A stretch of DNA of 64,000 nucleotides from assembly GCA_947492995.1 (NCBI GenBank), contig CANLOU010000001.1:815001-879000 (forward strand). The letters run 5' to 3'. This DNA is from an uncultured Litoreibacter sp. (GTDB lineage Bacteria > Pseudomonadota > Alphaproteobacteria > Rhodobacterales > Rhodobacteraceae). The position numbers and the translations under genes were made by a program. Shown here piece by piece: positions 49,081 to 64,000 of this stretch; the stretch's first letter is position 1, and each line of letters opens with the position of its first letter. The notes beneath the pieces were generated by a model, which made no database searches, was not told where the DNA came from, and saw nothing but the letters and a program-made list of their open reading frames with translations.

Positions 49081-49222
49081 GTGCGTGTCCTGCTATTTGG
49101 TTAGGGCAGGGAATACGTGCTTTGAGCGCGTTTTTCAACAAAACCTGGGACCCCGCGTCGGCGGGTTAATATATCCCTAACAAAAATGGGAAAATCGTTT
49201 GGCTTCAATGCTTTAAGGTGGT

Positions 49223-49238
49223 CCGACGCATGCGTCGG
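49223..49238. repeat. Palindrome CCGACGCATGCGTCGG, copy 2
   Basis: A perfect 16-base palindrome 4 bases beyond the ubiX stop. It shares its 14-base core and right flank (GA, one variable base, TTT) with 4006-4019 near the hslU stop. No T run follows on the ubiX strand, so a simple terminator is unlikely. Confidence 0.6.
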
Positions 49239-49241
49239 ATT

Positions 49242-49871: not shown

Positions 49872-49929
49872 TGCAAAAGGCCTTCGAAAAGTAGCGTGAT
49901 TGAATTGACATTTTCTGTTACAAGCTATC

Positions 49930-49946
49930 TAGGTTACCTAAGGTAA
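49930..49946. promoter_or_regulatory. Nested palindromes upstream of the regulator gene
   Basis: TAGGTTACCTA (49930-49940) and TTACCTAAGGTAA (49934-49946) are two overlapping perfect odd-length palindromes in the AT-rich divergent interval between ubiX and the response regulator. They are candidate operator sites; the rest of 49872-50093 shows no recognisable gene. Confidence 0.4.
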
Positions 49947-50093
49947 AGACCAAACCAATTTGCATCGATGGTTAGTTGGTAGCATCAAATTTAGCTCGTT
50001 TGTTTCGTTGCTTCATAATTCTATTGGCGTCGAGGCCAATATACACATGATAATTTGTGCTATTTTTTTAGCAAATTTATAGGGACGAATAGA

Positions 50094-50873
50094 ATGATTA
50101 AGGTACTTTTGATAGATGACGATGTAGAGCTCGCCGAGCTTATGCGCGACGTTCTGACAAACTATAGTATCGAATTACATGCGGTTCACACGCCCAGTGA
50201 GGGGTTTGAAGCGCTTGAAAATAATAAATACGACCTTGTTTTGCTGGATGTGATGCTTCCGCAACTCAATGGGCTGCAGATGTGTAGTAAGATTCGCTAC
50301 AGCAATTCCTCTTATAAAGACGTTTCGATTATCATCCTTACCGCGCGCACTGAACTGACGGATATGGTCGTTGGTCTAGAAACTGGTGCCGACGACTACG
50401 TTAAGAAGCCCTTTGAGCCTCGAGAACTGGTCGCGAGAATTAATGCGATTCTACGCCGAACCAAAACTCCTGAAGCAACTTCGGCACCAAGCACGACTTC
50501 CGCTTCACCTGCGCCCACCGCAACTCAAGGCCGCAGCGGCCTTTGCGTGGAAGTGGTGTTGGAGGGAGACGTCTTACAGATCGAAACGCAGCGCGCTCAA
50601 GTTTTGGTAAATGGCGAGAAGCTGGTTATCACATCAATGGAGTTTGAATTGATAGCGGCCTTGGCGCAAAGACCTGGCGAAATTCTAAACCGGGATGATC
50701 TTCTGGACGAGGTGCATGGCACCAGTGTGATCTACACGCGAAGTATTGATGCATTGATTTACCGCTTGAGGACCAAAATCAAGGAAGCGGGTGCTTCACA
50801 AGACTTCATTCGGACCGTGCGCGGCCGTGGATATTCCCTTGTTGGCCAAGTCAATAACCCCACAAACGCTTGA
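50094..50873 (+). CDS. OmpR-family response regulator 1
   Basis: A 259-residue two-component regulator. The receiver domain has the acidic pocket LLIDDD (5-10), phospho-acceptor Asp52 in LVLLDVMLPQLNG, Thr83 and Lys104 in DDYVKKPFEPRELVAR. A Ser/Thr/Pro/Ala linker (about 118-140) leads to a winged-helix domain with ITSMEFELIAALAQRPGEIL and SIDALIYRLRTKIKEAG. It resembles the second regulator at 56842 over the whole receiver (ELTD...LETGADD against ELTD...LESGIDD). No sensor kinase is next to it; the nearest is at 57551. Start at 50094 with AGGGA upstream; first gene of the accessory locus. Confidence 0.92.
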   Translation: MIKVLLIDDDVELAELMRDVLTNYSIELHAVHTPSEGFEALENNKYDLVLLDVMLPQLNGLQMCSKIRYSNSSYKDVSIIILTARTELTDMVVGLETGADDYVKKPFEPRELVARINAILRRTKTPEATSAPSTTSASPAPTATQGRSGLCVEVVLEGDVLQIETQRAQVLVNGEKLVITSMEFELIAALAQRPGEILNRDDLLDEVHGTSVIYTRSIDALIYRLRTKIKEAGASQDFIRTVRGRGYSLVGQVNNPTNA

Positions 50874-51489
50874 GCCTGCGCTCAAAACGCTGAGCTTTGA
50901 AGTCCGCACATCCTTGGCGACTGTCAAAGATCTGGGCGCGCTATTGGCAATGCGTGCGTCATCATCTGTGAATGGAATTTCGCGAAGTGAGCTCTCTTTT
51001 CGCAAGACGGAACTGAAGAGGCCTTTCATCGCTGTAGATAATGACCTGCTGCCTTGCTCAGTCTCGCATGTGCCAGGTCTTGTCGTGGCGGTTGCTGGGC
51101 CGTTGGGGGTCAATGTCGGAATAGATGCAGAACGACTAAGTCGCTTTGAGCGTATGGATGAGAGGATGGTCGATGAAATTCTTTCGCCGAGGGAACGTGA
51201 GCAGCAGTGCGATTGGACCGCAGAGACTTTGTTGCATGCATGGAGCCAGAAAGAGGCTTTTGTGAAAGCTATGGGGACAGGGTTCAAGGCCCGGCCAAAT
51301 ACGTATGAGGTGTCGCATCTGAATCTCGATGAAATTCACGACATGGGTGCAGGACGATTCTGGCGTTGCCGACAGTATCCTGCATGCGACGACTACTGGA
51401 TCACACTTGGTGTTCTGGCTGATAATCAAGATGTGTTAGAAAACTGGACACATACCCATCAGAAGATTGATGAAGCGGAATTTTTGTGA
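50791..51489 (+). CDS. 4'-phosphopantetheinyl transferase (Sfp/EntD type)
   Basis: Transfers the phosphopantetheine arm of CoA to carrier proteins. Motifs are CSVSHVPGLVVAVAG (89-103), VNVGIDAERLSRF (108-120, with the metal-binding Asp) and LLHAWSQKEAFVKAMGTGF (147-165, with the WxxKEAxxKA signature). The GTG at 50791 lies inside the regulator gene (83-base overlap) and has AAGGA 6 bases upstream; an ATG at 50950 would give a 179-residue protein and is the main alternative. Its presence beside ketosynthases and an adenylation enzyme indicates that this locus needs its own carrier-protein activation. Confidence 0.85.
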   Translation: MLHKTSFGPCAAVDIPLLAKSITPQTLEPALKTLSFEVRTSLATVKDLGALLAMRASSSVNGISRSELSFRKTELKRPFIAVDNDLLPCSVSHVPGLVVAVAGPLGVNVGIDAERLSRFERMDERMVDEILSPREREQQCDWTAETLLHAWSQKEAFVKAMGTGFKARPNTYEVSHLNLDEIHDMGAGRFWRCRQYPACDDYWITLGVLADNQDVLENWTHTHQKIDEAEFL

Positions 51490-51631
51490 CGCAATATCAC
51501 AAAACGCCATAAATGAAGCGCATGCTGTTTTATATCGAATGATATGTGGGGCCATATCTTTTGAAACCGTGTCAGCCTAAATTGGATTCGCGGACAAGGC
51601 TCCGTTCCAATTAATAACCAGAGCAATTACC

Positions 51632-52156
51632 ATGCCCCGTCTTTCCTTCTTTCTTTGTCTTGTGCCTTTGGTGCTTTTCGGCGCGATCGGCGGCTTTTTC
51701 TACGCATATTCCGTTTCCGTCATGCTGGGACTGAACAACCTTGCCGACAGCGCTGCGATTCAAGCCATGCAGGAATTGAACCGTGGAACCAGAAACGGGG
51801 TCTTCCTGGTAACGTTCCTGTTCACACCGATCGTCGCTGCAATATGCGGGGTGACCCTATTTTTCAAAGGTAACAAGGCAACGGGTGGGTTTTTGTTGGC
51901 GGCAGCTGGGATATATTTTGTCGGATCGTTTTTGCCGACCGTGAGCATAAGTGTCCCGATGAATCACGAAATTGAAGCATTGAATGCGGCCACGTTATCT
52001 GCCGCAGAGGCCGCGAAAGTCTGGGCAGAATACAGTGCCAATTGGACGTTCTGGAATACCGTCCGTGCGTCCATGGCGCTGATTGGATTGGGCCTGACTG
52101 GGTCCGCAATATATGTCCTCAATCGCAGCCCAGCACCTGCCGTCACCGTGGCCTGA
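51632..52156 (+). CDS. DUF1772 (anthrone oxygenase-like) membrane protein
   Basis: A 174-residue protein with four hydrophobic segments (about 5-25, 57-77, 82-102, 143-163). The DUF1772 pattern is visible in FFYAYSVSVMLGLNNLADSA, AMQELNRGTRNGVFL, SISVPMNHEIEAL and WAEYSANWTFWNTVRASMAL. Some family members assist oxygenation of polyketides and are called anthrone oxygenase-like, but most are uncharacterised. It is flanked by 142 bases on the left and ends at its own terminator, so it is transcribed separately from the export genes. A role in the locus product is possible but not shown. Confidence 0.78.
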   Translation: MPRLSFFLCLVPLVLFGAIGGFFYAYSVSVMLGLNNLADSAAIQAMQELNRGTRNGVFLVTFLFTPIVAAICGVTLFFKGNKATGGFLLAAAGIYFVGSFLPTVSISVPMNHEIEALNAATLSAAEAAKVWAEYSANWTFWNTVRASMALIGLGLTGSAIYVLNRSPAPAVTVA

Positions 52157-52198
52157 TACCAACCCAGGCCGCGGCCCAAAGGTCGCTTGAGGCGCATC

Positions 52199-52240
52199 AG
52201 CCGCCGAGTGTGTTTAGTCATGCACTCGGCGGCTTTTTTT
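52199..52240 (+). terminator. Rho-independent terminator after the DUF1772 gene
   Basis: AGCCGCCGAGTG (52199-52210) pairs with CACTCGGCGGCT (52223-52234) in a perfect 12-bp stem with a 12-base loop, followed by seven T. It lies 42 bases after the DUF1772 stop. Confidence 0.93.
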
Positions 52241-52264
52241 GTTTGTTGGGCCGATTCCTAATTG

Positions 52265-52284
52265 TGAGAGACAAAAAAATCTCA
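52265..52284. promoter_or_regulatory. Inverted repeat in the promoter region of the export operon
   Basis: TGAGA (52265-52269) and TCTCA (52280-52284) form a short inverted repeat around a run of A. It is in the 180 bases between the terminator and the ABC ATPase gene, which must contain that operon's promoter. Low weight because the arms are short. Confidence 0.25.
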
Positions 52285-52421
52285 GTCATAAAGCAGCGTT
52301 CATTTGTGACATTCGATCATCTTATAGCGTTGAAATACCATCCTTTGTTGTTTGTTTTTGAGAGGTCCTCATCGCTACGTTCGGAGCAAGATAACCAACT
52401 TGAGCCATAAGGAATGGACAC

Positions 52422-53165
52422 GTGAACAGTATTTCAACCCAAAGGTCTTTTCAGCCCGACAGCCAGTTTCAGCCTGTAGATCTGACAAAGGCCGGCGCGC
52501 CTGCTGTACGGTTTAACAACATCAAGAAGACCTACACGATGGATCGTGTTGAAGTGGATGCGCTGGCCGACGTGTCGGGCTCGATAGCGCGCCAAGAGAC
52601 AACATTCATCACCGGACCTTCGGGAAGTGGCAAGTCGACTTTGCTCAACATCATGGGTCTGATTGACCAGCCTACGTCTGGCGAGTTGTTCATCCTTGAT
52701 GAAGATGTGTCGCGCCTTAGCGACAAAGCCGCAGCGGATTTCAGATCTGAACATATCGGATTTATCTTTCAGTCTTTTAACCTGATCCCGGTTCTGACTG
52801 TCGGCGAGAATGTAGAGTTCCCGCTGTTGCGTCGCGTAAAGTCTGCATCCGAACGCCGCGAAAAAGCGGAGCAGTATCTGGATTCAGTGGGCCTGGCCGA
52901 TTTGATCGACCGCCGACCCGGCGAGATCTCTGGTGGTCAACGCCAGCGCGTTGCAATTGCCCGTGCGCTGGTGACCGAGCCGACACTCATCATTGCAGAT
53001 GAACCGACAGCAAATCTCGACTCCAAAACATCGCTCGAGATCATCGCGTTGCTCGACCACATGAAATCGGAATTCGACACCTCTGTGGTGATTTGTACCC
53101 ACGACACCAGCCTGATTACCGCAGGCAGTGCCACGATCAACATTATCGACGGCCATACGGCTTAG
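52422..53165 (+). CDS. LolD/MacB-type ABC transporter ATP-binding protein
   Basis: A 247-residue ATPase. A non-conserved N-terminal extension of about 28 residues precedes the ABC domain. Walker A is GPSGSGKST at 65-73, Q-loop IGFIFQSFNLIPVLTVGENV, signature EISGGQRQRVAIARAL (168-183), and Walker B LIIADEPTANLDSKTS, ending with the switch His in VVICTHDTSLI. This is the subgroup that pairs with FtsX-fold permeases (LolD, MacB, YbbA) and performs mechanotransmission in the envelope rather than classical import. Start is GTG at 52422 with AAGGA 10 bases upstream. The permease follows at once. Confidence 0.93.
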   Translation: MNSISTQRSFQPDSQFQPVDLTKAGAPAVRFNNIKKTYTMDRVEVDALADVSGSIARQETTFITGPSGSGKSTLLNIMGLIDQPTSGELFILDEDVSRLSDKAAADFRSEHIGFIFQSFNLIPVLTVGENVEFPLLRRVKSASERREKAEQYLDSVGLADLIDRRPGEISGGQRQRVAIARALVTEPTLIIADEPTANLDSKTSLEIIALLDHMKSEFDTSVVICTHDTSLITAGSATINIIDGHTA

Positions 53166-53175
53166 GAGCAGAAAA

Positions 53176-54561
53176 ATGATCTGGAAAATTGCATTTAGAA
53201 ATCTCACCAAAAACGCCAGACGGTCTGTGACTACGGCTATGGCAATTGGCATTGGCGGCTTCGCCGCGCTGCTGTTTGGCGGCTTTGTGACATCGATTTG
53301 GTTCGGAGTTCAAACCTCGATGATCCAAGAGCAGGGCAACCTGCAAATCTATCGCCAGGGCTACCTGGAATTTGGCGCCGCCAATCCTGACGACTACACA
53401 ATTCAAGGCTGGGATGAAGTTGCCGCCTTGTTGGCGAGCGACCCTGTTTTGAACCAGCAGCTGGCGGTGATAACGCCGCGCATTGACTTGGCTGGTGTGG
53501 CAGGCAACGCTCAGACCGGCAATTCCAAGACCTTTATCGGGTCTGGTGTGGTGCCTTCCCAGATTGACGAGATGCACAAGTGGGACGGCTGGTCTATTGG
53601 CCAAGTATCCCCCGCTTCCGGCCTAACCGATCAAGTCCTTGATGGTGTTGTCATTGGTATCGGCATGGCTCGCATGATGGGTATGTGCGGTCCGTTGAAC
53701 GTCGCTGATTGTCAGGACCGGCCAGTCGATGAGGATGCGCTGACCGAAGTCGAAACCGATTTTACGTCTTTGGTTAACGATGAAGCTGAGATCACTGATC
53801 TTCGCGAAGGCAGCGTGGAGCGCCCACAGCTGAACTTGATGGCGGCGACATCATCCGGCGTCCCAAACATCGCCCGGGTAGGTATCGAGGCCGCACGCCC
53901 GCAAGCCATTCGTGCCATCGACAACGCTTATGTCATGATGCATTTCGAACAAGCACGTGGCCTGCTGTATGGCGACAGCCAAGAGGCCACAACGCTGATG
54001 CTTCAGGTGGCCAACCCCGACCAGGTGGACGCAACCAAAGACCGTATCCAAGAGGTGCTTGACCGCGCCGGGCTGGATCTGAAGGTCTTCCACTTCACTG
54101 AAGTTGACCCGACCTTCAACCGCATCTTCGGCATGTTCACCTTCATGTTCATCGTGGTGTCCATCGTCCTGTCGATCGTGATTGTCTTCACGATTGTGAA
54201 CACGGTCTCGATGAACGTCATGGAGCGCGTCAAAGAGATTGGGACAATCCGTGCTCTGGGCTTCCGCAAAGGTTTTGTGCGGGCCCTGTTCCTGACGGAG
54301 AGCGCGCTGATTGGGTTGTTTGGAGCGCTGATTGCGCTGAGCGCAGCGGTGGTCATCGCCAACATCGTAAATTCCGCCGGCGTGCAGTGGACGCCACCTT
54401 CCAACGCAACCCCCCTGACGGTTCAGTTGATGGTTCTAGACAACCCGCTCTTTGCTGCAAGCGTGGTCGGTTTGCTGATCCTCATCTCCGTCGTCGCCTC
54501 GGTGATGCCTACTTTCAAGGCTGCCCGCCTGAACATCGTCGAAAGCCTGCAACGCGCATAA
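53176..54561 (+). CDS. FtsX-family ABC permease
   Basis: A 461-residue permease with the MacB/LolCE architecture. One N-terminal membrane helix (RSVTTAMAIGIGGFAALLF, about 15-35) is followed by a large periplasmic domain (about 40-310) and three C-terminal helices in the FtsX domain (FMFIVVSIVLSIVIVFTIVN, VMERVKEIGTIRALGFRKGF, SALIGLFGALIALSAAVVIA). It ends with TFKAARLNIVESLQRA, a typical coupling tail. Only one permease gene is present, so it probably works as a homodimer with the ATPase upstream. ATG at 53176 follows TAGGAG by 8 bases. Confidence 0.9.
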   Translation: MIWKIAFRNLTKNARRSVTTAMAIGIGGFAALLFGGFVTSIWFGVQTSMIQEQGNLQIYRQGYLEFGAANPDDYTIQGWDEVAALLASDPVLNQQLAVITPRIDLAGVAGNAQTGNSKTFIGSGVVPSQIDEMHKWDGWSIGQVSPASGLTDQVLDGVVIGIGMARMMGMCGPLNVADCQDRPVDEDALTEVETDFTSLVNDEAEITDLREGSVERPQLNLMAATSSGVPNIARVGIEAARPQAIRAIDNAYVMMHFEQARGLLYGDSQEATTLMLQVANPDQVDATKDRIQEVLDRAGLDLKVFHFTEVDPTFNRIFGMFTFMFIVVSIVLSIVIVFTIVNTVSMNVMERVKEIGTIRALGFRKGFVRALFLTESALIGLFGALIALSAAVVIANIVNSAGVQWTPPSNATPLTVQLMVLDNPLFAASVVGLLILISVVASVMPTFKAARLNIVESLQRA

Positions 54562-54601
54562 CCGCGCAACCCAAGAAATATGAACCTGAAAGGAACATAA
54601 A

Positions 54602-55393
54602 ATGGAACTTCAACGTCGTGAATTTACTCAGCTCATGTTTGGTGGCGCAGCCGCCGCTGGCCTGACGAGCTTCGGCCTCCCCGTCTTCGCCGCTGGTAGC
54701 GCGAGCAACATCTTGTCGAAAGCGGATGCCATTCGGAACCCGCAGACTTCGTTTGCTGTCGATGTCACCCTGTCTGCCTACGAGCGTGGTAAGCTGAAAG
54801 ATCAGACGAAGGTGACGACTTACTCGCGTGCCGCTGGTCGCCAATTCCAGACATTGGTCCACATCAATGCGCCAAGCGCAGATCGCGGCAAGATCCTGCT
54901 GCGCAACGGGAACATCCTGTGGCTCTATGATCCGGCATCTAAAGCGTCGGTTCGCATCTCGCCGCGCCAGCGCCTTCTGGGTAACGCGTCGAACGGTGAT
55001 GTTGTCAGCTCCAATTTGGTCGGTGACTATAGCGCGAGCCTTCAGGGTCAGGAGACCATCGCTGACGGTGACAAGAAGAACCGCGCCTGCCACAAACTGC
55101 ACCTGAAAGCTGCCGCGAAATCTGCGCCATATAGTGCCGTCGATTTCTGGGTAGATGCCAGCAACAACGCCCCAATCAAAGGCAAGTACTTCACCAAGAG
55201 CGGCAAGCTCATCAAGGTGGCTTGGTACCGTAAGTGGAAAAACCAAATGGGCGCCCGCCGTCCCACCGAAGTGGTGATCGCCGATGGCTTCGACCCGAAT
55301 AAGGTCACCGTCATGACCATGGGCAACTTCCGGTCCAAGAAACTTCCTCAATCCTGGTTCAGCAAAGAATGGCTGCCCAACTTCAAAGCATAA
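54602..55393 (+). CDS. LolA-like outer-membrane lipoprotein-sorting family protein with Tat signal
   Basis: A 263-residue protein with a twin-arginine signal (LQRREFTQLMFGG, hydrophobic core, FGLPVFAAG at about 24-32). The mature part has the LolA-like fold: SFAVDVTLSAYERGKLKDQT, ILLRNGNILWLYDPASKASV, ISPRQRLLGNASNGDVVSSN and FWVDASNNAPIKGKYFTKSG. Members of this family are thought to carry lipids or lipoproteins through the periplasm. Its place directly after an ABC ATPase and permease, and before an outer-membrane barrel, suggests it is the periplasmic shuttle of a lipid-like export route. Confidence 0.82.
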   Translation: MELQRREFTQLMFGGAAAAGLTSFGLPVFAAGSASNILSKADAIRNPQTSFAVDVTLSAYERGKLKDQTKVTTYSRAAGRQFQTLVHINAPSADRGKILLRNGNILWLYDPASKASVRISPRQRLLGNASNGDVVSSNLVGDYSASLQGQETIADGDKKNRACHKLHLKAAAKSAPYSAVDFWVDASNNAPIKGKYFTKSGKLIKVAWYRKWKNQMGARRPTEVVIADGFDPNKVTVMTMGNFRSKKLPQSWFSKEWLPNFKA

Positions 55394-55408
55394 GAAGGAA
55401 CTCGTGCG

Positions 55409-56794
55409 ATGAAAGATCTTCTGACGTATTCGGCCGCTACGGCCATCGGCGTATTTGGCCTGCCAGCCTTTGCGCAAGACTTTGACCTTCCGCCGGATTT
55501 GATCCCTGCGGCGGAGGAGAGTGTTTTTTCCCAAGAGGACACTGTCGAAGCGCCCGATACGTCGGAAGTGCGGACGCGTAGCGCCACATTGGAAACTGAA
55601 TTCCGAGCGTTTCGTACTGAAGAGTTGGCGGGTGGCAACACCTCAGGGGTACGCGCCTCCGCTCATTATTTCGGGACGTATGCACTGAGTGATCGTGCCA
55701 GCCTGCTTTTCAATCTGCGAGGTCGGCTGGACCGATTTGAGGGGACGTCTTTTGACTTTGGGAACAACGTGAACCTAGACGTTCAGGAACTTGCTCTCAG
55801 CTATACCATATCGCCCCAGACGACATTGCAATTTGGGCGCATCAATATCCGCAACGGGGTTGCAGTTGGCTTCAACCCAACTGACTGGTTTAAGGATAAC
55901 AGCCTTGTCACTGCGGATAGCGCGGCCCCTTCTGATCGCCGTCGTGAGCGGTTGGGTGTCCTGGCGATTACCGGGACTGCAACCGTTGGTAACACGTTGC
56001 TGCAGTTTGGCTATCGGCCCGAAGTCAGCGCAAGTGCGGGGTCGGTCGTCACCGATCAGGACTCTATTGGTCTTGGGCTGGACCGCACAAACCCGACCGA
56101 TGCTTTTTTCATCAAGGCGACTCCTCAATTCGGCGGCAACCTGTCTGTTACCGGCAATATCTTGCTGGATGATGGCGATCCGGGCTTGGGCTTTGAGGTC
56201 AGCGGCACAATCGGGGATAACTTGGTTCTGTACGGTGAAGTATTTGGACAAAAGCGACTTTCAATTGCATCCGAGGCTCTTGCTGGCGGGTTAGGATCTG
56301 CGGCTTTTCAGCAAGGCATCGGCGTGAGCAGCACCAAGGACTGGGAAGTGCAAGCAGCATTGGGATTGAACTGGGCGTTGCCACAATCGTTTGTGGGGTC
56401 CAGGGATATTTCCGTCGCGTTTGAGTACCACCTGAACACCGCAGGGCTGACAAGCAATCAGATTGACGTTTTGGCTGGAGCTACCGGCGCAGACGGCGCG
56501 GCAGCGGGTGCGATCTATGGGACAGCTTCGCGCAGGCAGGAACCACTGGCACGAAATCAGCTTTTTACACGCGTGGCATGGACTGACTTTTGGGGGGACA
56601 GTGACCTGTCTGTTCTTGGGTTCTACGTCCCAGCCGATGACAGTGGGTTGGCGCAAATTTCGGTGGATGTGCCGATTGGCCAGAATGCCACCATGAACTT
56701 GCGCGGCATTTCAACATTTGGCGACAGCACATCTGTTTACGGGGCGAACCCCGTTAAGCGAACCCTCCAAATGGGACTGACATACGTATTCTAA
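55409..56794 (+). CDS. Outer-membrane beta-barrel protein
   Basis: A 461-residue protein with a signal peptide (AATAIGVFGLPAFAQ, cleaved at about residue 22), an acidic linker, and a repeated pattern of alternating hydrophobic residues from about 55 to the end. It closes with MGLTYVF, a typical C-terminal aromatic barrel signature recognised by BamA. Lengths and strand density suggest about 16-18 strands. I do not recognise the family. It begins 15 bases after the LolA-like gene, so it is probably the outer-membrane terminus of the same export system. Confidence 0.75.
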   Translation: MKDLLTYSAATAIGVFGLPAFAQDFDLPPDLIPAAEESVFSQEDTVEAPDTSEVRTRSATLETEFRAFRTEELAGGNTSGVRASAHYFGTYALSDRASLLFNLRGRLDRFEGTSFDFGNNVNLDVQELALSYTISPQTTLQFGRINIRNGVAVGFNPTDWFKDNSLVTADSAAPSDRRRERLGVLAITGTATVGNTLLQFGYRPEVSASAGSVVTDQDSIGLGLDRTNPTDAFFIKATPQFGGNLSVTGNILLDDGDPGLGFEVSGTIGDNLVLYGEVFGQKRLSIASEALAGGLGSAAFQQGIGVSSTKDWEVQAALGLNWALPQSFVGSRDISVAFEYHLNTAGLTSNQIDVLAGATGADGAAAGAIYGTASRRQEPLARNQLFTRVAWTDFWGDSDLSVLGFYVPADDSGLAQISVDVPIGQNATMNLRGISTFGDSTSVYGANPVKRTLQMGLTYVF

Positions 56795-56841
56795 CAAGTT
56801 CAATTCTTTTGGCTTGAGGTTTTCATAACAGGACGACGACT

Positions 56842-57546
56842 TTGCACGTTTTAATACTTGATGATGATGAGGAACTAGGCGAGCTGATGCAGCCGATACT
56901 TGCCCAATATGGCATGGACCTTAAACTTGCCTTCACCCCATCCAGCGCTTTTGAGCAGCTTGAAGCAGAGACCTTCGACGTTCTCTTGCTTGATATGATG
57001 TTGCCAGAACTGGACGGCATGGCCGTCTGCCACAAAATCCGTGGCAGTGGCGCGGCATATAGCCAGATCCCGATTGTCGCCTTGACGGCCCGAGCCGAAT
57101 TGACGGACCGGATCGTGGCTTTAGAAAGTGGCATTGATGACTTCGTCGCCAAGCCCGTTGAGATGCGCGAATTGGTTGCGCGCCTGAACGCGGTTATGCG
57201 TCGCCGTAGGGCTGACGCAGCTGAGCGACTGCAAGGTGAAGTTGACGGGAGCTCCAGCACTTCGCTTGAACTGTCGGAAGCCCATATGTCCGCAAGCTTC
57301 GGTGGACATGTTGTGAACTTGACCGAACTTGAAATGCAGATCGTAAAGGCCTTGGCAGATGCCAATGGTGTGATCGTCAGCAGGGCAGAAATTCTGGAGA
57401 GGATTGGCTATGCCGAACACAACGATCCGGCTATGATCGACACGATAATTTATAGGGTCCGCCAAAAGTTCCGAGACCAGGGCTTGCAGACAGATTTCAT
57501 CAAGACACTGCGCAGCCAAGGCTACCGCATCGAAACAAGGAATTAA
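56842..57546 (+). CDS. OmpR-family response regulator 2
   Basis: A 234-residue regulator. The receiver pocket has LILDDDEELG, Asp51 in LLLDMMLPELDGM, Thr82 and Lys104 in DDFVAKPVEMRELVAR. The DNA-binding domain has VNLTELEMQIVKALADANGV and IDTIIYRVRQKFRDQG. Start is TTG at 56842 with AGGA 8 bases upstream; there is no better start in frame. It precedes the histidine kinase by 4 bases and is its obvious partner. It is a paralog of regulator 1. Confidence 0.9.
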   Translation: MHVLILDDDEELGELMQPILAQYGMDLKLAFTPSSAFEQLEAETFDVLLLDMMLPELDGMAVCHKIRGSGAAYSQIPIVALTARAELTDRIVALESGIDDFVAKPVEMRELVARLNAVMRRRRADAAERLQGEVDGSSSTSLELSEAHMSASFGGHVVNLTELEMQIVKALADANGVIVSRAEILERIGYAEHNDPAMIDTIIYRVRQKFRDQGLQTDFIKTLRSQGYRIETRN

Positions 57547-57550
57547 GATC

Positions 57551-58861
57551 GTGGGCTTTGTGGAACGCGCCGGGCTTTGGATACGGACCCGATCCGTCTT
57601 TAGCTTTTTGCTGGCGGCGACATTGATGTCGACTACGTTGCTGAGCATTGTACTTGTGCTGTCGTTGCAGCGCGTCGCTGATGAGCATCCCCGTCGGTAT
57701 CTTGCACGCGCATTGTTTGACGCGTTTTCCCAAAGTGCGATGAACCCTGATAGCGAAGTTACTGTCATTGGCGGCGCGCCAATGATTTTGATGTCGCCGG
57801 ACGAGGCGAGCGCTTCGGAATTTGCGACTCTGTATAAGGCAGCCGCGAATGACAAAGATGGTATTGCGATTAGTAGGTTGGGGGACCGCTATGCTGCGGT
57901 TTCAGTGCGCGGTGACAAGGTAGCTATTCTGCCGGAGTTTGGCCAACCCATCTCGGCCTTTGCTTTGATGTTGGTTGGGATCGTAATCTTCGCGATCTGC
58001 GCGACCATTACTGTGATCTATCTTTTGATGCGTCGTTTGACGTTGCCTTTCACGGAGCTGACGACCGGTATCACCAGAGTTGAGGACGGCGATCTGGACT
58101 ACCAGATCCCGTTGGACCGAACCTTCGGCGAATACCGAAAGTTTGCCGAGGGCTTCAACACGATGGTTGCTGAGTTGCAGCGGATCCACGAAAGCCGCCG
58201 CCATATGTTGTTGGCGTTACCCCATGAAATCCTCACACCTCTGTCCCGGCTGAAGGTGCGTAAGGACATGGTAGATAATGCCAAGCTTCGCGACCAGATC
58301 AGTGGGGACATTACCGTAGTTGAAGAAATTCTTTCGTCGATTCTGGCTGCTGAAAAACGCAGCTCCGGTCAGGCCCAGGCAGAGTTTGTAGATATTGAAC
58401 CTTACGCTGCCGAGCAGGTAGAACAGCTTCTTAATCAAGGGGTCGATATTTCGATCAGCAATGACACGGGCATGGATACCGCATATTTCGATCCATTCCT
58501 AACCAGCGTCTTGTTGAAGAACTTCGTCTCAAACGCTGTGCGTTACGGCAAAGGTAACCCGATCGCCGTCAGGTTCTCCGCCGTAGAAGGAGAAGCCTGC
58601 GATATGCGCATTTCGGTCAAAGACCAAGGCGTCGGAATCGCGCCGGAACAGTTACAATATTTGATGGAGCCTTTCTGGCGCGCAGATGAGTCGCGCGGTC
58701 GCGCTTCTGGTGGGTACGGACTTGGGCTGTATCTTTGTAAGACAATTGCCACTGGTCTTGATGGCCGGATTGACGTCGAAAGCACGCTAGATGTCGGCAC
58801 CGAGATTAGCGTGATATTGCCACAGGCGCTTTGCACGACCTTAGAGGATGTTTCAAAATGA
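57551..58861 (+). CDS. Sensor histidine kinase
   Basis: A 436-residue kinase with two membrane helices (about 18-40 and 135-160), a short periplasmic sensor of about 95 residues, and a HAMP domain (about 160-212). The H-box has His225 in LALPHEILTPLSRLKV, which differs from the usual SHELRTPL around the His. The ATPase domain has N-box LLKNFVSNAVRYG, G1 VKDQGVGIAPEQLQ, F-box EPFWRADESRGRAS and G2 GYGLGLYLCKTIA. Start is GTG at 57551. It overlaps the next gene by 4 bases (ATGA), so sensor and transglutaminase-like protein are co-translated. Confidence 0.92.
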   Translation: MGFVERAGLWIRTRSVFSFLLAATLMSTTLLSIVLVLSLQRVADEHPRRYLARALFDAFSQSAMNPDSEVTVIGGAPMILMSPDEASASEFATLYKAAANDKDGIAISRLGDRYAAVSVRGDKVAILPEFGQPISAFALMLVGIVIFAICATITVIYLLMRRLTLPFTELTTGITRVEDGDLDYQIPLDRTFGEYRKFAEGFNTMVAELQRIHESRRHMLLALPHEILTPLSRLKVRKDMVDNAKLRDQISGDITVVEEILSSILAAEKRSSGQAQAEFVDIEPYAAEQVEQLLNQGVDISISNDTGMDTAYFDPFLTSVLLKNFVSNAVRYGKGNPIAVRFSAVEGEACDMRISVKDQGVGIAPEQLQYLMEPFWRADESRGRASGGYGLGLYLCKTIATGLDGRIDVESTLDVGTEISVILPQALCTTLEDVSK

Positions 58862-59517
58862 CACCGAATACATTGGCAGAAACCGAATTTTTTGATTTTT
58901 CTGATCCGGCCCTGGATCTGTTCGCGGCCCGTGCGCTGAAGTCCGGTAGTACTGACAAACGCACTCAAGCGGTCGAGCTGTTTTATGCGGTTCGCGATGG
59001 GCTGTTTTATGAAATATACAACGCGGACTTTGGCCGTGATGATCTGACTGCGAGCGCAATCATAAGTAAGGGCTCCGGTTTGTGTATTCACAAATCAATT
59101 GTCTACACGGCATTGCTACGCAAGATGGGTATTCCCGCCAAGTTGTGGATTACGGATGTAAAGAATCATTTGTGCTCACCACAATTAGCTAAACTCATGG
59201 GGAGCAACGTTTTTCATTTCCATGTGTTGGTGTCCCTCCAGCTGGATGGCAAATGGATTAAGGCCACACCAGTGTTCAATGCGCGCCTCTGTCAGCTCTA
59301 TAAGATGACGCCGCTAGAGTTTGATGGCATCGAGGACTGCGTTCACCACGCCTATGATACAAAGGGCAACAGCTACATGGAGATCACCCATGAGCATGGT
59401 GAATATACTGATCTTCCCTACGAGATGCTGCTTGAGGGTTTACATCAAAAGCACGGAAAGATGTTCGAGACAGAAACGAAATTTAGATCGGGTTCGTTAG
59501 TGGCAGACGCCGTCTAA
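58858..59517 (+). CDS. Transglutaminase-like superfamily protein
   Basis: A 219-residue protein with a transglutaminase core. Cys76 lies in SKGSGLCIHKSIVYTALLRK, with the usual RKMGIPAKLW following. His122 is in FHFHVLVSLQLDGKWIK. At the third catalytic place, where WxxxDP is expected, it reads WIKATP, so Thr137 stands where the Asp would be by my alignment. Such domains act as proteases or amide-bond-forming enzymes; in some antibiotic clusters (AdmF of andrimid) they condense carrier-bound acyl groups. Here it ends the regulator-kinase unit, just before the ketosynthase operon. ATG at 58858. Confidence 0.8.
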   Translation: MTPNTLAETEFFDFSDPALDLFAARALKSGSTDKRTQAVELFYAVRDGLFYEIYNADFGRDDLTASAIISKGSGLCIHKSIVYTALLRKMGIPAKLWITDVKNHLCSPQLAKLMGSNVFHFHVLVSLQLDGKWIKATPVFNARLCQLYKMTPLEFDGIEDCVHHAYDTKGNSYMEITHEHGEYTDLPYEMLLEGLHQKHGKMFETETKFRSGSLVADAV

Positions 59518-59542
59518 TTACTGCCAAATTATTCTTTCGTTG

Positions 59543-59575
59543 AGGCCGCCTTCGAATCAGAAGGTGGCCTTTTTT
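59543..59575 (+). terminator. Rho-independent terminator after the transglutaminase-like gene
   Basis: AGGCCGCCTTC (59543-59553) pairs with GAAGGTGGCCT (59560-59570), one G-T wobble, with a 6-base loop and T run to 59575. It separates the regulator/export unit from the biosynthetic unit downstream. Confidence 0.88.
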
Positions 59576-59694
59576 GATGCTTTCTCTGCCTTTGTGTGAG
59601 TGACCTTCGGGAAGTAACAACTGTTTGTGATCTAATACTAATTAAGATTTTGAAGCACGTGACTTTCTCGTCAGAGATAATTCGTTAAACAATA

Positions 59695-59769
59695 TTTTGT
59701 GAAGTTCGAAATTCTTTTCGCACAAAACACCAAACTATCCACAAATTAGCTGTCCTATAGTGAATTCAC
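59695..59769. promoter_or_regulatory. Palindromes in the promoter region of the biosynthetic operon
   Basis: The 318-base interval 59518-59835 holds no gene. Besides the terminator it contains TTTTGTG (59695-59701) and its inverted copy CACAAAA (59721-59727), and a perfect palindrome GTGAATTCAC (59760-59769) about 67 bases before the first start codon. They are candidate operator sites for one of the two response regulators. Confidence 0.4.
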
Positions 59770-59835
59770 ACCAGAAGACGCAGCGTCAATTAGCTGCAGA
59801 ATCTGGCCCAGGATAACATTAAGAGAGCTAAGAAA

Positions 59836-60216
59836 ATGATCATCAATTCCATTGACAACATCCAAGACACCGACCGCGATGTATCGTGGGGCAACGGCAA
59901 AAGCCGCCGTCTTCTGATTGAAAAGGATCAGATGGGTTATTCCCTGACTGATACGATTATTGATGAAGGCACGTCTTCACTGCTGGAATATAAAAACCAC
60001 CTTGAGGCCTGCTATTGCATCGAAGGCGACGGCGAAGTTGTCGACGAACAAACCGGCGAAACGCACCGCATTACGCCTGGCACAATGTACGCATTGGACA
60101 AACACGATAAGCATTGGCTGAAGGCCAACAAAACCCTTCGCTTGGTATGTGTCTTCAACCCGCCCCTCAAAGGCCACGAAGTTCATTCCCTGACCGGAGA
60201 CAGCTCGGCTTATTGA
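59836..60216 (+). CDS. Ectoine synthase-like cupin (solitary EctC)
   Basis: A 126-residue small cupin that aligns along its length with EctC, which cyclises N-gamma-acetyl-diaminobutyrate to ectoine. I see EYKNHLEACYCIEGDGEV, ALDKHDKHWLKA and VFNPPLKGHEVH, as in EctC. By numbering, the residues I recall as iron ligands (Glu57, Tyr85, His93) and several substrate contacts (Thr40, Tyr52, Cys105, Phe107, Glu115) are kept; Trp21 and Asn38 are not (Gly, Thr). No ectA or ectB is present. It opens an operon with ketosynthases, so its substrate may be a carrier- or lipid-linked diamino acid rather than free acetyl-diaminobutyrate. Confidence 0.85.
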   Translation: MIINSIDNIQDTDRDVSWGNGKSRRLLIEKDQMGYSLTDTIIDEGTSSLLEYKNHLEACYCIEGDGEVVDEQTGETHRITPGTMYALDKHDKHWLKANKTLRLVCVFNPPLKGHEVHSLTGDSSAY

Positions 60217-60271
60217 GCCGAACCCTCTTCCTCCCTTCTGTCTCCCCGACTAACCAAAGGTTGTATCTGTC

Positions 60272-61258
60272 ATGAAAGACAGCGTCATAGTTTCAGCGGC
60301 ATGCGCGGACGTCGCGCCAGGTGGTCCTCTCCCTGCCACCGGGCAGACTGCAGGTGCAACCTTTGGTTCTTTTAACGTCAATTTCTTGGATCATTCCGAG
60401 TTTGAAACGCACAGAAAGGCCGAGCGTGGACGGCACACGAAAGTGTCCTACCGGCTTTGCCAAATGGTTGACCGCCTGCTTGCAGATGCCGGCCTAACCA
60501 GAGATCAAATTTCCGGCCCAAGCACAGCGCTTATTTCGGGCTCAAACTACGGCTGTTCGCAGGTTTTCGAAATGCATCGCCGCCTTCGTAAGCATGGACC
60601 ACGCGGCATTGATGCTGTCCGGTTCGCGCAAGCGACACATAACTACCCAGTGTCTGCCTGCGCCATTGAATACGGCTTGATGGGCCCGTGCCTGGCGGTG
60701 GTCAGTACCGAGACCGCTGGCATGGATGCGCTACACTGTGCTTACGACTGGATCACTGATGAGCGGTGCGACCGCGCTATCGTTGTGGGCTTTGAAGATT
60801 TTTCTTCCCCGACCGGTGAACATGTCTGCGCCCGAGCGAAGGACGCGCCCGCCGGGCATGCGGTGAGTGAGGCCATGGTGATGGTGATGCTGGAACGCCA
60901 ATCGACGGCCCAGGCCCGAGGGGCCGCAGATGGCAAACCCGTCATCACGGGCATAACAACCACCTACAGCGGCGCTGATGCCGCAGAAGCAGAACGTGTC
61001 CGCAGCAAAATCGCTGGCGACGCGCTTGATACTGACAAAATTTCTTCCCTGACCACGCACCGCATGGGGCAACGCGCGGTTGGGACAAAAGATACGGATT
61101 ACCTTGGTGCCGGCGGACTGCTGGAGATTGCACACCTGTTGAACAGCCCAAATAAGGGCCAACAAGGACAGCAACATTGGCAAGTCGGCGCCCTTTCGCA
61201 AGGCGGTAGCGGCGTGATGGCCGGCATCAAGGTAACTCAATTGGAACCAGCTCTATGA
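60272..61258 (+). CDS. Degenerate ketosynthase (chain-length-factor-like)
   Basis: A 328-residue protein with a thiolase/ketosynthase fold that is shorter than the usual 400. Where FabF has GPSISIATACTSG, this protein has GPCLAVVSTETAG, so Glu147 stands at the active-site Cys. The two catalytic His motifs are also lost (SSLTTHRMGQRAVG instead of HGT and KSxxGH). It ends with SQGGSGVMAGIKV. This is what a KS-beta/chain-length factor partner looks like, although those usually carry Gln. It overlaps the active ketosynthase by 4 bases, which supports a heterodimer. No acyltransferase or carrier protein is visible. Confidence 0.82.
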   Translation: MKDSVIVSAACADVAPGGPLPATGQTAGATFGSFNVNFLDHSEFETHRKAERGRHTKVSYRLCQMVDRLLADAGLTRDQISGPSTALISGSNYGCSQVFEMHRRLRKHGPRGIDAVRFAQATHNYPVSACAIEYGLMGPCLAVVSTETAGMDALHCAYDWITDERCDRAIVVGFEDFSSPTGEHVCARAKDAPAGHAVSEAMVMVMLERQSTAQARGAADGKPVITGITTTYSGADAAEAERVRSKIAGDALDTDKISSLTTHRMGQRAVGTKDTDYLGAGGLLEIAHLLNSPNKGQQGQQHWQVGALSQGGSGVMAGIKVTQLEPAL

Positions 61259-62493
61259 CCCGTTCAGTTGTTGTTACCGGTATGGGTGTTGTGACGCGCA
61301 ACGTCATAGGCACCCGCGCATTTGACCAGTTGTTGGCTGATGGCAGCCCGGCACCTGGCAGACCGTCTCAGTTTGATTCTGGCCGCTTTAGGGCGAAGAA
61401 TGCCTACGCCACTGACCCTTCCGCAGCGAACACAGCGTTGCGAGAGGCGCTGCTGCGCAAAGGTAAAGATTTAGGTCTTGGAAACGTCACTGAGACCGAC
61501 ATGAATTGCGCAGGCTACGGTTTGCTTGCCGCGATAGAAGCTGTTGAGCAGGCTGGGCTAACGCCAGAGATGCTCAAATCGGCAGGATGCTCGATTGCCA
61601 CAACCAGTGGTGGGATGATGGACCGCTATACTGACGCCCTTGATGAGGGCGACCATAGCGCGCAATTTCAAGAGCTTGTCACCCCCGGCAGTGCCGCGCT
61701 TGTGCTGCGCCGCATCTTTGGGTTGCACGGTCCGCTCAGCAGCTTCTCTTGCGCCTGCGCTAGCAGTTTGGGCGCGGTGTCCTACGCATTTATGCGGGTC
61801 CGAAACGGTGATGCGCCGGTAATGCTTGTTGGTGGCAATGACCGCATCCGCGAGGCCGACTTTGCAGGGTTTAATGCTTTGCGCGCCATGGACCGCGACA
61901 GATGCAGGCCGTTTGATGTCGATCGGCGTGGGATGATTATCGGCGACGGTGGCGCAATTTTGGTCATCGAAGACGAGGAGCATGCGCGCGCACGCGGTGC
62001 TGTGCCCCTTGCGAGAATGGCAAGCGTCGCCTTGTCGACAGACTCTCATCACATCACCTGCCCAAAACCTGATGGGCTATCACGGGCGATGGAGCAGGCG
62101 TTGGAACGCGCAGAGATGAAGCCAGATGTGGTTGGCTATGTGAACTGCCATGGCACCGGCACCCAGATCAACGACGAGGCAGAGGCCATCGCGCTTGAAG
62201 CTGTGTTTGGTGGCGGTGCCACTCGACCCATCGTGAGTTCAACCAAAGGCACAACCGGCCACTTGTTGGGCAGCGCTGGCGCTATCGAAGCCATCGCCAC
62301 AGTTTTGGCTTTGCGCGCGGGCGAGGCCCCCAAAATGACCTCGACGATCAACCCCGAAGACATCCCGTTCACCTTGCCCGTCGAGGGAGAGGACCGAACG
62401 ATCCGCACAAATGTCGCCATGAGCAACTCGCTTGGATTTGGTGGCCTCAATGGGAGCCTGATTTTTCAGCTCCCTGAAACTGGAGATTTCTGA
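61255..62493 (+). CDS. Beta-ketoacyl synthase (active, FabF-like)
   Basis: A 412-residue ketosynthase with a complete catalytic set: Cys168 in SFSCACASSLGAVSYAF, His299 in NCHGTGTQINDEAEAI, and Lys331/His336 in SSTKGTTGHLLGSAGA. The N-terminus VVVTGMGVVTRNVIG is FabF-like. It would condense malonyl-ACP with an acyl starter, probably as a heterodimer with the preceding degenerate ketosynthase. The ATG overlaps that gene by 4 bases, and the TGA overlaps the acyl-CoA dehydrogenase start by one base. Confidence 0.92.
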   Translation: MTRSVVVTGMGVVTRNVIGTRAFDQLLADGSPAPGRPSQFDSGRFRAKNAYATDPSAANTALREALLRKGKDLGLGNVTETDMNCAGYGLLAAIEAVEQAGLTPEMLKSAGCSIATTSGGMMDRYTDALDEGDHSAQFQELVTPGSAALVLRRIFGLHGPLSSFSCACASSLGAVSYAFMRVRNGDAPVMLVGGNDRIREADFAGFNALRAMDRDRCRPFDVDRRGMIIGDGGAILVIEDEEHARARGAVPLARMASVALSTDSHHITCPKPDGLSRAMEQALERAEMKPDVVGYVNCHGTGTQINDEAEAIALEAVFGGGATRPIVSSTKGTTGHLLGSAGAIEAIATVLALRAGEAPKMTSTINPEDIPFTLPVEGEDRTIRTNVAMSNSLGFGGLNGSLIFQLPETGDF

Positions 62494-63674
62494 TGCGTAC
62501 GATACGCAATCTGTCCCGTGCCAATGACAACGGCAGCTACCGGACCGAATTAGTTGAAACATTGGCTGAAGCCCTGGATCAATGGGGGCCCCTTTTGAAC
62601 GAGGGCTGGCAGGCCGACGATCAGGCATCTGTGTTTGGCAAGAACCGCTGGCAAGCAATGGTCGACGCCGGACTGACTGGACTGACGACTTCGGAAGAGC
62701 TTGGTGGATTAGAGCTGACAGTCTCGGAGCTGACGGATGTCTTGGTTCATCTCGGCTATGTCTGCGAGGACTCTGGTCTAGGCTTTTCGTTGGCCACACA
62801 TCTTTGCAGCACATGCATCCCAATTCAAAAATTTGGAAGTGATGCGTTGAAGGATGATCTGCTTCCGAAATTGACGGTGGCCGAAGTGGTGGGCGCACAT
62901 GCAATCACGGAACCAGACAGTGGTTCAGACGCGTTTGCGATGGGAACCAAAGCCGTCAAAGATGGTGATGAGTACATCCTGTCCGGCGAGAAATGTTACA
63001 TCTCCAATGCGCCCATCGCAGATGTTTGCGTAGTCTATGCTCGAACCCATCCGGAGAAGGGCGCGCTTGGTGGGTTCTCTGCTTTTGTGGTCGATTGCGA
63101 CACCAAAGGGTTCACAATTGGTAAAGCCCGCAAAAAGATGGGGCTTCGCACCGCACCGATGGCGGATCTCTATTTTGATGACGTTCGCGTGCCAGCCAGC
63201 CGTCTGATTGGCCGAGAGGGGCAAGGCTTCTCGATTTTGGATTTTGTCATGAAATGGGAAATCCTTTGTGTCTTCGCGCTGCAAGTTGGCGAGATGCGTC
63301 GGCAATTAGATCGCTGCATTTCGTTTGCAAAAACGCGCCAACAATTCGGGGCGGCGATTGGCAGCTATCAGGCGATTTCACATCGCGTCAGCGATATGCA
63401 TATCCGGCTTGAAAATGCGCGCAATTGGTTGAGCCGCGCGGTCACCGCCATGGACGGTGGTGGTCAAGCGTCGCTGGAAATTGCGTCTGCCAAACTGGCA
63501 ATTTCAGAAGCCAATGTCGCCAATTCCATGGATGCGATCACGCTGCATGGCGGCGCTGGCTACATGATTGAGACCGGGATCGAGAGCCATCTGCGCAACG
63601 CCATGGGGGGGCTGATCTACTCAGGCAGCTCAGACATTCAAAAGAACCGCATTTCCGCAATGCTAGGCCTGTAA
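62493..63674 (+). CDS. Acyl-CoA dehydrogenase family protein
   Basis: A 393-residue flavoprotein. The N-terminal helical and middle domains have GAHAITEPDSGSDAFAMGTK and SGEKCYISNAPIADV, typical of the family. The C-terminal domain has HGGAGYMIETGIESHLRNAM and IYSGSSDIQKNRI. The catalytic Glu of the usual YEGT motif is replaced by Ser377. Glu256 in FVMKWEILCV aligns with the helix-G Glu that serves as base in isovaleryl-CoA dehydrogenase. In this operon it probably desaturates an acyl or aminoacyl thioester bound to a carrier protein. Coupled to the ketosynthase by TGATG. Confidence 0.88.
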   Translation: MRTIRNLSRANDNGSYRTELVETLAEALDQWGPLLNEGWQADDQASVFGKNRWQAMVDAGLTGLTTSEELGGLELTVSELTDVLVHLGYVCEDSGLGFSLATHLCSTCIPIQKFGSDALKDDLLPKLTVAEVVGAHAITEPDSGSDAFAMGTKAVKDGDEYILSGEKCYISNAPIADVCVVYARTHPEKGALGGFSAFVVDCDTKGFTIGKARKKMGLRTAPMADLYFDDVRVPASRLIGREGQGFSILDFVMKWEILCVFALQVGEMRRQLDRCISFAKTRQQFGAAIGSYQAISHRVSDMHIRLENARNWLSRAVTAMDGGGQASLEIASAKLAISEANVANSMDAITLHGGAGYMIETGIESHLRNAMGGLIYSGSSDIQKNRISAMLGL

Positions 63675-63689
63675 AACGAGGTATTTGAG

Positions 63690-64000
63690 ATGTTACTGCA
63701 AACAAATTTCCAAATTTCCAAGACCCGCGCTTTCTATGAATTGCTGCGCGAAGAGATGCTGAAAACCCCTGACGCTGAAGTTGGGACGATGACCGAAAAG
63801 GCCAACTTTGCGGAGATATTGGATCTGGCGGAAATCATTTGTGCCGAGTTTCCAGAGGTCAGCAGCGACCGTGATGAAACAATTGCGATCTGTGCCGAAA
63901 AAAGCCCCAAGACGGTTGCCGCTATATTGGGTGCGTTGTCGGGAGGTATCGCTTATGCGCCACTTGATCCCACCCACCCCGACACCCGATTGACCAACAT
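63690..64000 (+). CDS. NRPS-type adenylation enzyme, N-terminal part (partial)
   Basis: A frame open to the window edge, beginning with ATG 63690, 15 bases after the dehydrogenase stop. The first 70 residues are a variable N-terminal region. AAILGALSGGIAYAPLDPTH matches adenylation core motif A1 (the LKAGxAYVPLDP block of NRPS adenylation domains), and PDTRL follows as in that family. It would activate an amino or aryl acid as an AMP ester for loading onto a carrier protein. Substrate and downstream domains are outside the window; a carrier domain may lie in the missing part. Confidence 0.85.
   Translation, partial: MLLQTNFQISKTRAFYELLREEMLKTPDAEVGTMTEKANFAEILDLAEIICAEFPEVSSDRDETIAICAEKSPKTVAAILGALSGGIAYAPLDPTHPDTRLTN

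Follow-up and report, generated by a model that had tools for sequence, protein, structure and literature searches.

A genomic island of an uncultured Litoreibacter that may make and export a pyrrole-based product

What might a bacterium make with a ketosynthase pair, a stand-alone adenylating enzyme, four enzymes of the tryptophan-pathway type, and two sets of transport genes that resemble the Lol system? The question is raised by a genomic island of 28 genes and 28.7 kb in an uncultured Litoreibacter sp. (assembly GCA_947492995.1). The stretch of DNA that we analyzed, which we call the window, is 64,000 nucleotides of contig CANLOU010000001.1 (positions 815,001 to 879,000). The cluster runs from 49242 (UbiX) to 77863 (the end of UbiD), which is 13.9 kb past the window; above 64000, we continue the window's numbering into the contig (i.e., the position in L004 plus 64000). 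Cluster genes are on the plus strand unless marked as minus. A preliminary description of 50094..64000 had proposed an accessory locus that couples a carrier-protein-dependent pathway to a dedicated Lol-like export route. All of the gene classes that it listed are real open reading frames at the places given (the barrel by its AlphaFold model, with no Pfam match), and the cluster goes beyond its bounds on both sides, to UbiX on the left and UbiD on the right. As a whole, that interpretation is partly supported. We propose that the island makes and delivers one small heteroaromatic, pyrrole-based product. The full scheme seems to us quite possible, if somewhat short of probable.

Do these genes belong together? 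Fifteen of them are collinear in 7/7 relatives with contigs that span the block: those for the LolD-type ATPase, the FtsX-type permease, a LolA-like carrier, the barrel, a response regulator (RR2), a histidine kinase (HK), a transglutaminase-like protein (TG), an EctC-type cupin, the ketosynthase-like KSb, the ketosynthase KSa, a flavin dehydrogenase (ACAD), the adenylating enzyme (A), a carrier protein (PCP), and TrpD- and TrpC-like enzymes. The seven are Primorskyibacter aestuariivivens, Fertoeibacter niger, Gemmobacter caeruleus, a Gemmobacter metagenome-assembled genome (MAG), a Rhodobiaceae MAG, the genome that we call G173, and Aliiroseovarius crassostreae; counts of 8/8 refer to these plus the sequence under study. 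An eighth relative has a contig of just 5,359 bp, and the order is the same for its six genes (TG-EctC-KSb-KSa-ACAD-A). Because this 15-gene order recurs, the cluster is far from a chance assembly. Six other genes, for an FAD amine-oxidase-family protein (AO), an AfsA-type protein, TrpA- and TrpF-like enzymes, a second LolA-like protein (LolA2), and an MMPL transporter, are found in the same 7 relatives in two arrangements. They adjoin the block except in the Rhodobiaceae MAG, where they lie together on a separate contig. UbiD is beside MMPL in 5/7 (F. niger, G. caeruleus, G173, A. crassostreae, and the Rhodobiaceae MAG; the stretch from P. aestuariivivens does not cover this place, and the contig of the Gemmobacter MAG ends there). 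An orthologue of UbiX is beside the cluster in 5/7 as well (P. aestuariivivens, G173, A. crassostreae, F. niger, and G. caeruleus).

The export and biosynthetic genes also appear to have traveled together. Across 8 species, the mean divergence of 4 export proteins is correlated with that of 6 biosynthetic proteins (r = 0.977; 1 of 9999 permutations was as high). This supports one shared history but is not proof of functional coupling, as inheritance by species would raise r too. With the conserved order from LolD to TrpC, it bears out the proposed linkage of export and biosynthesis.

The beginning of the product can be predicted by homology. The adenylating enzyme (63690..65216; PF00501/PF13193; TIGR01733 at 294.8 bits, cut-off 317.4) has its first 103 codons in the window (63690..64000), and 13 more cluster genes lie past it. 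The sequence to the right had been expected to complete this protein and perhaps to reveal a carrier protein, an acyltransferase, and a thioesterase; it supplied the complete protein and the carrier and neither of the others. The carrier (65241-65495; 84 amino acids; PF00550, 25 bits) comes directly after the ligase and has a DSL serine, as carrier-dependent biosynthesis would have it, and the DSLG motif is kept in 8/8. A profile of the ligase from 8 orthologues gives 285 bits to 6o6e (an L-proline--carrier ligase), which is its best free-standing match in the PDB, versus 237 and 205 for two LgrA domains taken singly. The dehydrogenase (62493..63674) resembles L-prolyl-carrier-protein dehydrogenases: it scores 364.6 bits against NF053553 (PigA; cut-off 500) and 362.8 against NF045652 (RedW-type; cut-off 650), and the next family is at 256. 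Among its best four PDB sequences, three are prolyl-PCP/ACP (acyl carrier protein) dehydrogenases, and the second-ranked is labeled as a butyryl-CoA dehydrogenase. KSa (61255..62493; PF00109 and PF02801) is a catalytic ketosynthase whose Cys-His-His is kept in 8/8. KSb (60272..61258; the N-domain of PF00109 only) is a CLF/CYF-like partner with no active-site cysteine; at the column of the KSa cysteine, all 8/8 have E, S, H, L, or D, and the modeled structure of KSb (pLDDT 65) shows a ketosynthase-type fold, its matches including the ishigamide KS/CLF. By these homologies, the adenylating enzyme would load an amino acid, most likely L-proline, onto the carrier, the dehydrogenase would oxidize the prolyl-carrier towards pyrrole-2-carboxyl-carrier, and KSa with KSb would add one (or a few) malonyl units.

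A longer chain had been suggested in the preliminary description, i.e., an amino-acid-headed acyl lipid that is exported by the Lol-type genes. The ketosynthase pair, the carrier, and the Lol-like transporters are all present, and aryl polyenes, which are made by ketosynthases, are proposed in an excerpt of PMC8253772 to reach the outer membrane with LolA-like and RND proteins. Fatty-acid enzymes could also act in trans, as is presumed for FabI in cispentacin synthesis (excerpt of PMC10698177). However, none of the 28 cluster proteins came up in Pfam scans as a ketoreductase, FabA/FabZ-type dehydratase, enoyl reductase, acyltransferase, or thioesterase. Because the cluster has no chain-processing enzyme, we demoted the acyl chain from main explanation. 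The prolyl-carrier-like dehydrogenase also speaks against it, and the four Trp-type enzymes would be left unexplained. An acyl-chain lipid is poorly supported, and we think it quite improbable.

Since four enzymes of the tryptophan-pathway type are in the cluster, ring chemistry is implied. They are TrpD-like (65532-66575), TrpC-like (66572-67282; PF00218, 113 bits; with a short N terminus), TrpA-like (71093-71902, minus), and TrpF-like (71899-72570, minus; PF00697). Elsewhere, the genome holds the canonical set (one further TrpA, TrpC, and TrpF each, plus two more proteins of the TrpD-fold family), to which the cluster's copies are 29-32% identical. In contrast to the tryptophan pathway, there is no TrpE-, TrpG-, or TrpB-type protein among the 28 cluster genes. 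Four residues are given as essential in indole-3-glycerol phosphate synthase (IGPS) in an excerpt of PMC7681013 (Lys53, Lys110, Glu159, and Asn180), and the cluster's TrpC keeps all of them in 8/8, with ESG altered to ASG. TrpD departs from the canonical GTGGD and KHGNR, and from the Arg of VRxxLG, in 8/8, and it keeps a later DE pair. We take the altered motifs to be those that bind anthranilate and phosphoribosyl pyrophosphate (PRPP) in the canonical enzyme. The Glu and Asp of two motifs in TrpA are kept in 6/7 aligned sequences (the seventh is cut off there). In TrpF, the Asp is kept in 6/6 and the Cys in 5/6, the sixth sequence being truncated at that point. Our reading of these alignments is that the four would be working enzymes that are aimed at a different acceptor. 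According to the title of the IGPS paper (PMC7681013), indole formation does not require decarboxylation, so TrpC might use a wider range of acceptors.

By analogy to scytonemin, the strongest rival is that the Trp-like genes are supply paralogues, which raise the flux of indole or tryptophan for a pyrrole-indole or indigoid pigment. TrpD and TrpA pass their NCBIfam equivalog cut-offs (TIGR01245, 205.8 versus 199.05 bits; TIGR00262, 122.3 versus 102.35), which leaves anthranilate and indole possible as their ordinary substrates and also weighs against a different acceptor. A TrpA without TrpB would release free indole. In the scytonemin cluster, expansions of trpE/G, D, C, A, and B are described as precursor supply (excerpt of PMC13055916). 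On the other hand, the 28 cluster genes include neither anthranilate synthase nor TrpB, the TrpD motifs are non-canonical throughout, and the genome already has its own full set. We consider this explanation unlikely.

If the acceptor is instead made on the carrier, as we propose, then the beta-keto thioester would be turned into an enamine-type acceptor by the EctC-type cupin and/or TG. The cupin (59836..60216; PF06339, 169 bits) passes the NF009806 cut-off for ectoine synthase (176.8 versus 128), matches EctC in the PDB (E 3e-40), and keeps NHLE, a Tyr, and the last His of the MYALDKHDKH region in 8/8, which we take to be metal ligands; it is a candidate cyclase. TG (58831..59517; PF01841, 43 bits) keeps the Cys of GLCIHK and both His of FHxH in 8/8 and is a candidate amide-forming or releasing enzyme. 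The TrpD-TrpF-TrpC-TrpA-like series would then build a new pyrrole ring on the acceptor, as tryptophan biosynthesis does on anthranilate, by phosphoribosyl transfer, Amadori isomerization, ring closure, and release of glyceraldehyde phosphate. A candidate for the simplest product is 2,2'-bipyrrole. UbiD (76358-77863; PF01977 and PF20696) would remove a carboxylate, and UbiX (49242..49871, minus; PF02441, 148 bits; NF004685, 261 bits, cut-off 188) would supply its prenyl-FMN; that both lie within one cluster favors the scheme. Finally, AO (68904-70208, minus; amine-oxidase/desaturase family; PF01593, 98 bits) might extend the conjugation to give a colored compound. Its nearest NCBIfam models are HpnE and protoporphyrinogen oxidase, with scores far under the cut-offs.

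Homology supports the start unit and the linkage of the genes; we infer the acceptor, the annulation, the color, the cargo, and the direction of export. Several points weigh against the scheme. The main gap is the nitrogen that TrpD would ribosylate, as there is no aminotransferase in the cluster; there is no malonyl transacylase in it either. The AfsA-type protein and TG have no fixed place in the scheme. The dehydrogenase is under the cut-offs of both prolyl models. The ligase's preference for proline is suggested by scores and not by a substrate code, and the whole-protein scores of LgrA and of the peptide synthetase 8xjz exceed that of 6o6e. The models of the barrel and KSb have low confidence (pLDDT 69 and 65). 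Targeting to the outer membrane is suggested by the transport genes, and no enzyme that would acylate a membrane anchor was seen in the cluster. As for color, two of the four named carrier species have the epithets niger and caeruleus, and from what we take these words to mean, there is a hint of a dark pigment. Excerpts of two papers that name G. caeruleus give no colony color for it or for F. niger.

A bolder version of the scheme is that the island encodes a second bacterial route to bipyrrole or oligopyrrole pigments, in which a carrier-made pyrrole unit with a polyketide extension replaces anthranilate, diverged TrpD-F-C-A-like enzymes annulate a further pyrrole ring on it with carbons from PRPP, and the dark product goes to the outer membrane by two Lol-like routes of its own. 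We are doubtful that all of this holds. If the proposed scheme is right, then the ring-building series of tryptophan synthesis could be lifted from primary metabolism onto a carrier-made substrate, as a modular pyrrole annulation, and a compact island would pair a natural product with its own delivery chain across the envelope. Carriers of the cluster include cultivated type strains (G. caeruleus and F. niger). The product and the cargo of the LolD/FtsX/LolA/barrel genes could be tested by single gene deletions. If the epithets reflect the product, there would be a visible phenotype and simple genetics.

What would the transport genes do? The first set has a LolD-type ABC ATPase (52422..53165; PF00005, 120 bits), an FtsX/LolCE-type permease (53128..54561; PF02687, 63 bits), a LolA-like periplasmic carrier (54602..55393; PF17131, 126 bits; its N terminus looks like a signal peptide by eye), and a probable outer-membrane beta-barrel (55409..56794). 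The AlphaFold model of the barrel has many long strands and is AlgE/porin-like; in the PDB, the alginate exporter AlgE matches it best (E 8e-14, TM about 0.49, mean pLDDT 69). The second set is LolA2 (72952-73851; PF17131, 75 bits) and the adjoining MMPL transporter (73933-76374; PF03176), and in relatives this pair is also next to TrpF. As in LolCDE-LolA, there is an ATPase, an FtsX-type permease, and a LolA-like carrier, but the scores are under the cut-offs for LolD (TIGR02211, 219.5 versus 307.75) and LolCE (TIGR02212, 65.7 versus 362.45), and the island has a barrel in place of LolB as well as the second LolA-like protein with MMPL. We propose that the product, either as such or linked to a lipid, would exit the inner membrane by way of LolD/FtsX and MMPL and that the two LolA-like carriers would ferry it across the periplasm to the outer membrane at the barrel. 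There is a precedent in a pigment cluster, for which LolA-like and RND proteins have been proposed to form a dedicated transport route (excerpt of PMC8253772).

Alternatively, the LolD/FtsX/LolA/barrel module might handle an envelope lipid or lipoprotein, for self-protection or repair, rather than the product. Using a profile of the barrel, we found distant relatives in 4/384 other Alphaproteobacterial genomes, at five places (L058, L059, L060, L061, and L062), all in other families. At all five, LolD, FtsX, and LolA-like genes adjoin the barrel, with 27-50% identity to the cluster's versions. In the 6.6-14 kb around each that we compared, the other cluster proteins are absent, save for one weak match of LolA2 that overlaps the LolA-like gene. 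(One genome, G354, has two copies of the module.) Since the module also stands without the biosynthetic genes, it is wider than the cluster and was probably recruited into it; these genes might belong to a family for envelope transport in general. So the export genes can be found apart from the biosynthetic ones, but not in the cluster's own subfamily, which is linked and co-diverging in the relatives. A protective role would give linkage too, which makes this less than decisive. We think that an envelope role in place of export is rather unlikely.

The two-component genes would control the pathway under our scheme. They are RR2 (56842..57546; OmpR-type, PF00072 and PF00486), a HAMP sensor histidine kinase (57551..58861; PF00672 and PF02518), and another OmpR-type regulator, RR1 (50094..50873; PF00072 and PF00486), whose frame opens with TTG at 50055; 50094 is its first ATG. 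Another possibility is that the product is a signal like a butenolide or gamma-butyrolactone: the AfsA-type hotdog protein (70221-71096, minus; PF03756) would couple a triose phosphate with a pyrrolyl beta-keto unit, and the response to the signal would come from the two-component proteins. The stretch FDHPLDHxPGLLLLE is conserved in 5/5 aligned AfsA-type sequences, and the regulator/kinase pair is conserved as well. But the AfsA-type protein has just 71 bits against NF041195 (cut-off 200), no reductase or phosphatase of that pathway was seen in the cluster, and neither the Trp-type set nor UbiD nor two transport units for the envelope would be required for a butyrolactone. We would be surprised if this were correct.

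Is the island a variant of a known system? It does not have the full defining set of the aryl polyene, prodiginine, or cispentacin systems. Like the aryl polyene (ape) cluster of E. coli (excerpt of PMC8253772), it has KS-type enzymes, its own carrier, a LolA-like protein with an RND-type transporter, and a proposed outer-membrane destination. It differs in lacking a ketoreductase, FabZ-type dehydratase, glycosyl- or acyltransferase, and thioesterase, and in adding a proline-type start, Trp-type enzymes, UbiX/UbiD, and the extra LolD/FtsX/barrel unit. In the 4-methoxy-2,2'-bipyrrole-5-carbaldehyde (MBC) branch of prodiginine and tambjamine synthesis, PigI, PigG, and PigA carry out the loading, and PigH and PigJ make the second ring. 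By family, the stand-alone proline-type ligase, carrier, and prolyl-carrier dehydrogenase match those of the MBC branch, with the dehydrogenase under the PigA and RedW-type cut-offs, whereas the island's second ring would use PRPP-type carbons via the TrpD/F/C/A-like enzymes. The cluster contains no PigH/PigJ-type protein (KSa has 103 bits against the PigJ model, with a cut-off of 900). The cispentacin and coronafacic acid (CFA) system, in which AmcF-AmcG perform a single C2 extension (excerpt of PMC10698177), has a KS with a short Cys-less partner, a carrier, and an adenylating enzyme, as does the island, but the island's ligase is of the amino-acid type and is not a 2-oxoglutarate ligase. 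We rejected a plain member of the cispentacin/CFA system, given scores and cut-offs of 208/325 bits for AmcF, 21/80 for AmcG, and 27/80 for AmcB. As for ectoine, the cupin keeps the EctC motifs, but it adjoins KS genes in every relative seen, and there is no ectA- or ectB-type gene among the 28. No paper on this gene set was among the titles and abstract openings listed for our terms in the open-license literature.

How widespread is the cluster? We used KSb as a marker. The counts are lower bounds, as the scan of 84,980 species (one genome per species) relied on exact peptide patterns and the other searches scored no more than the leading few candidates of each genome. That scan gave 6 loci, in P. 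aestuariivivens, F. niger, G. caeruleus, a Gemmobacter MAG, a Rhodobiaceae MAG, and a Rhodobacteraceae MAG. KSb was found in 4/295 genomes of the family and in 2/390 of the order sample (the island's own genome included in both), and just in its own genome in the class sample (1/385) and the phylum sample (1/398). In the order sample, 5 other genomes of the same genus had no match. Among plasmids, 8 from A. crassostreae have a KSb match and the flavin oxidase (we viewed the whole cluster in 1/8), and 11 further records, from Streptomyces and Embleya, have weak KSb matches (E 1e-7 to 1e-5). The A. crassostreae cluster is on the large plasmid NZ_CP080775.1 (L023 and L038). By annotation, its neighbors at one end are RHS and SpvB/TcaC genes, and those at the opposite end are of the type II secretion type. 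The title of one paper gives A. crassostreae as the cause of an oyster disease.

That the locus is accessory, as had been proposed, can also be seen from its borders. On the left is a ribonuclease-D-type gene (48469-49080; PF01612), and on the right is tRNA-Leu(CAG) (77817-77902). In G171, a genome of the same genus, the ribonuclease-D-type gene starts at 14027 (minus strand) and the same tRNA is at 14056, so the island is absent at that site: the gap is 28 bp, versus 28,736 bp in the source genome. The G+C content is 53.6% in the island versus 58.1% in the window to its left and 57.3% to its right, and 22 of the 27 gaps between neighboring cluster genes are under 100 bp or are slight overlaps. 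The rarity of the island favors its gain over its loss from the other members of the genus. We set aside a mobile element with its own integrase, as there is no integrase among the cluster genes and there are no exact direct repeats of more than 12 bases between the end regions (48900-50100 and 77600-78000).

The phosphopantetheinyl transferase (PPTase, AcpS superfamily; 50791..51489; PF01648, 52 bits) has an uncertain start, with a frame that overlaps RR1, and is one of 2 such matches in the genome. It had no match in the stretches that we examined from the relatives. In P. aestuariivivens (G099), a different PPTase with a 4PPT_N domain adjoins UbiX (L012:7098-7820, minus), which suggests that the PPTase was replaced between lineages. 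Neither the DUF1772/anthrone-oxygenase-family protein (51632..52156; PF08592; NF050162 ChrI at 97.6 bits, cut-off 275) nor the MFS transporter (67705-68907, minus; PF07690) was matched in the Gemmobacter stretches examined, and MFS was not matched in the Rhodobiaceae stretch either. The genes for the carrier, TrpD, TrpC, and a receiver-like protein trail that of the adenylating enzyme at short spacing. The receiver-like protein (141 amino acids; 67279-67704, i.e., L003:18279-18704; weak matches under the cut-offs) closes the biosynthetic operon and is fast evolving (30-38% identity), yet it is found in 3 of the compared relatives.

Past the tRNA on the right are an SDR-family gene, BacA, and a gene with a Fer4_20/pyridine-nucleotide-oxidoreductase make-up, for which GltD is our own label, chosen from its domains. 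The UbiD frame (L004:12358-13863) terminates within the opposite-strand tRNA-Leu gene (L004:13817-13902), so the last residues of UbiD are encoded by tRNA sequence.

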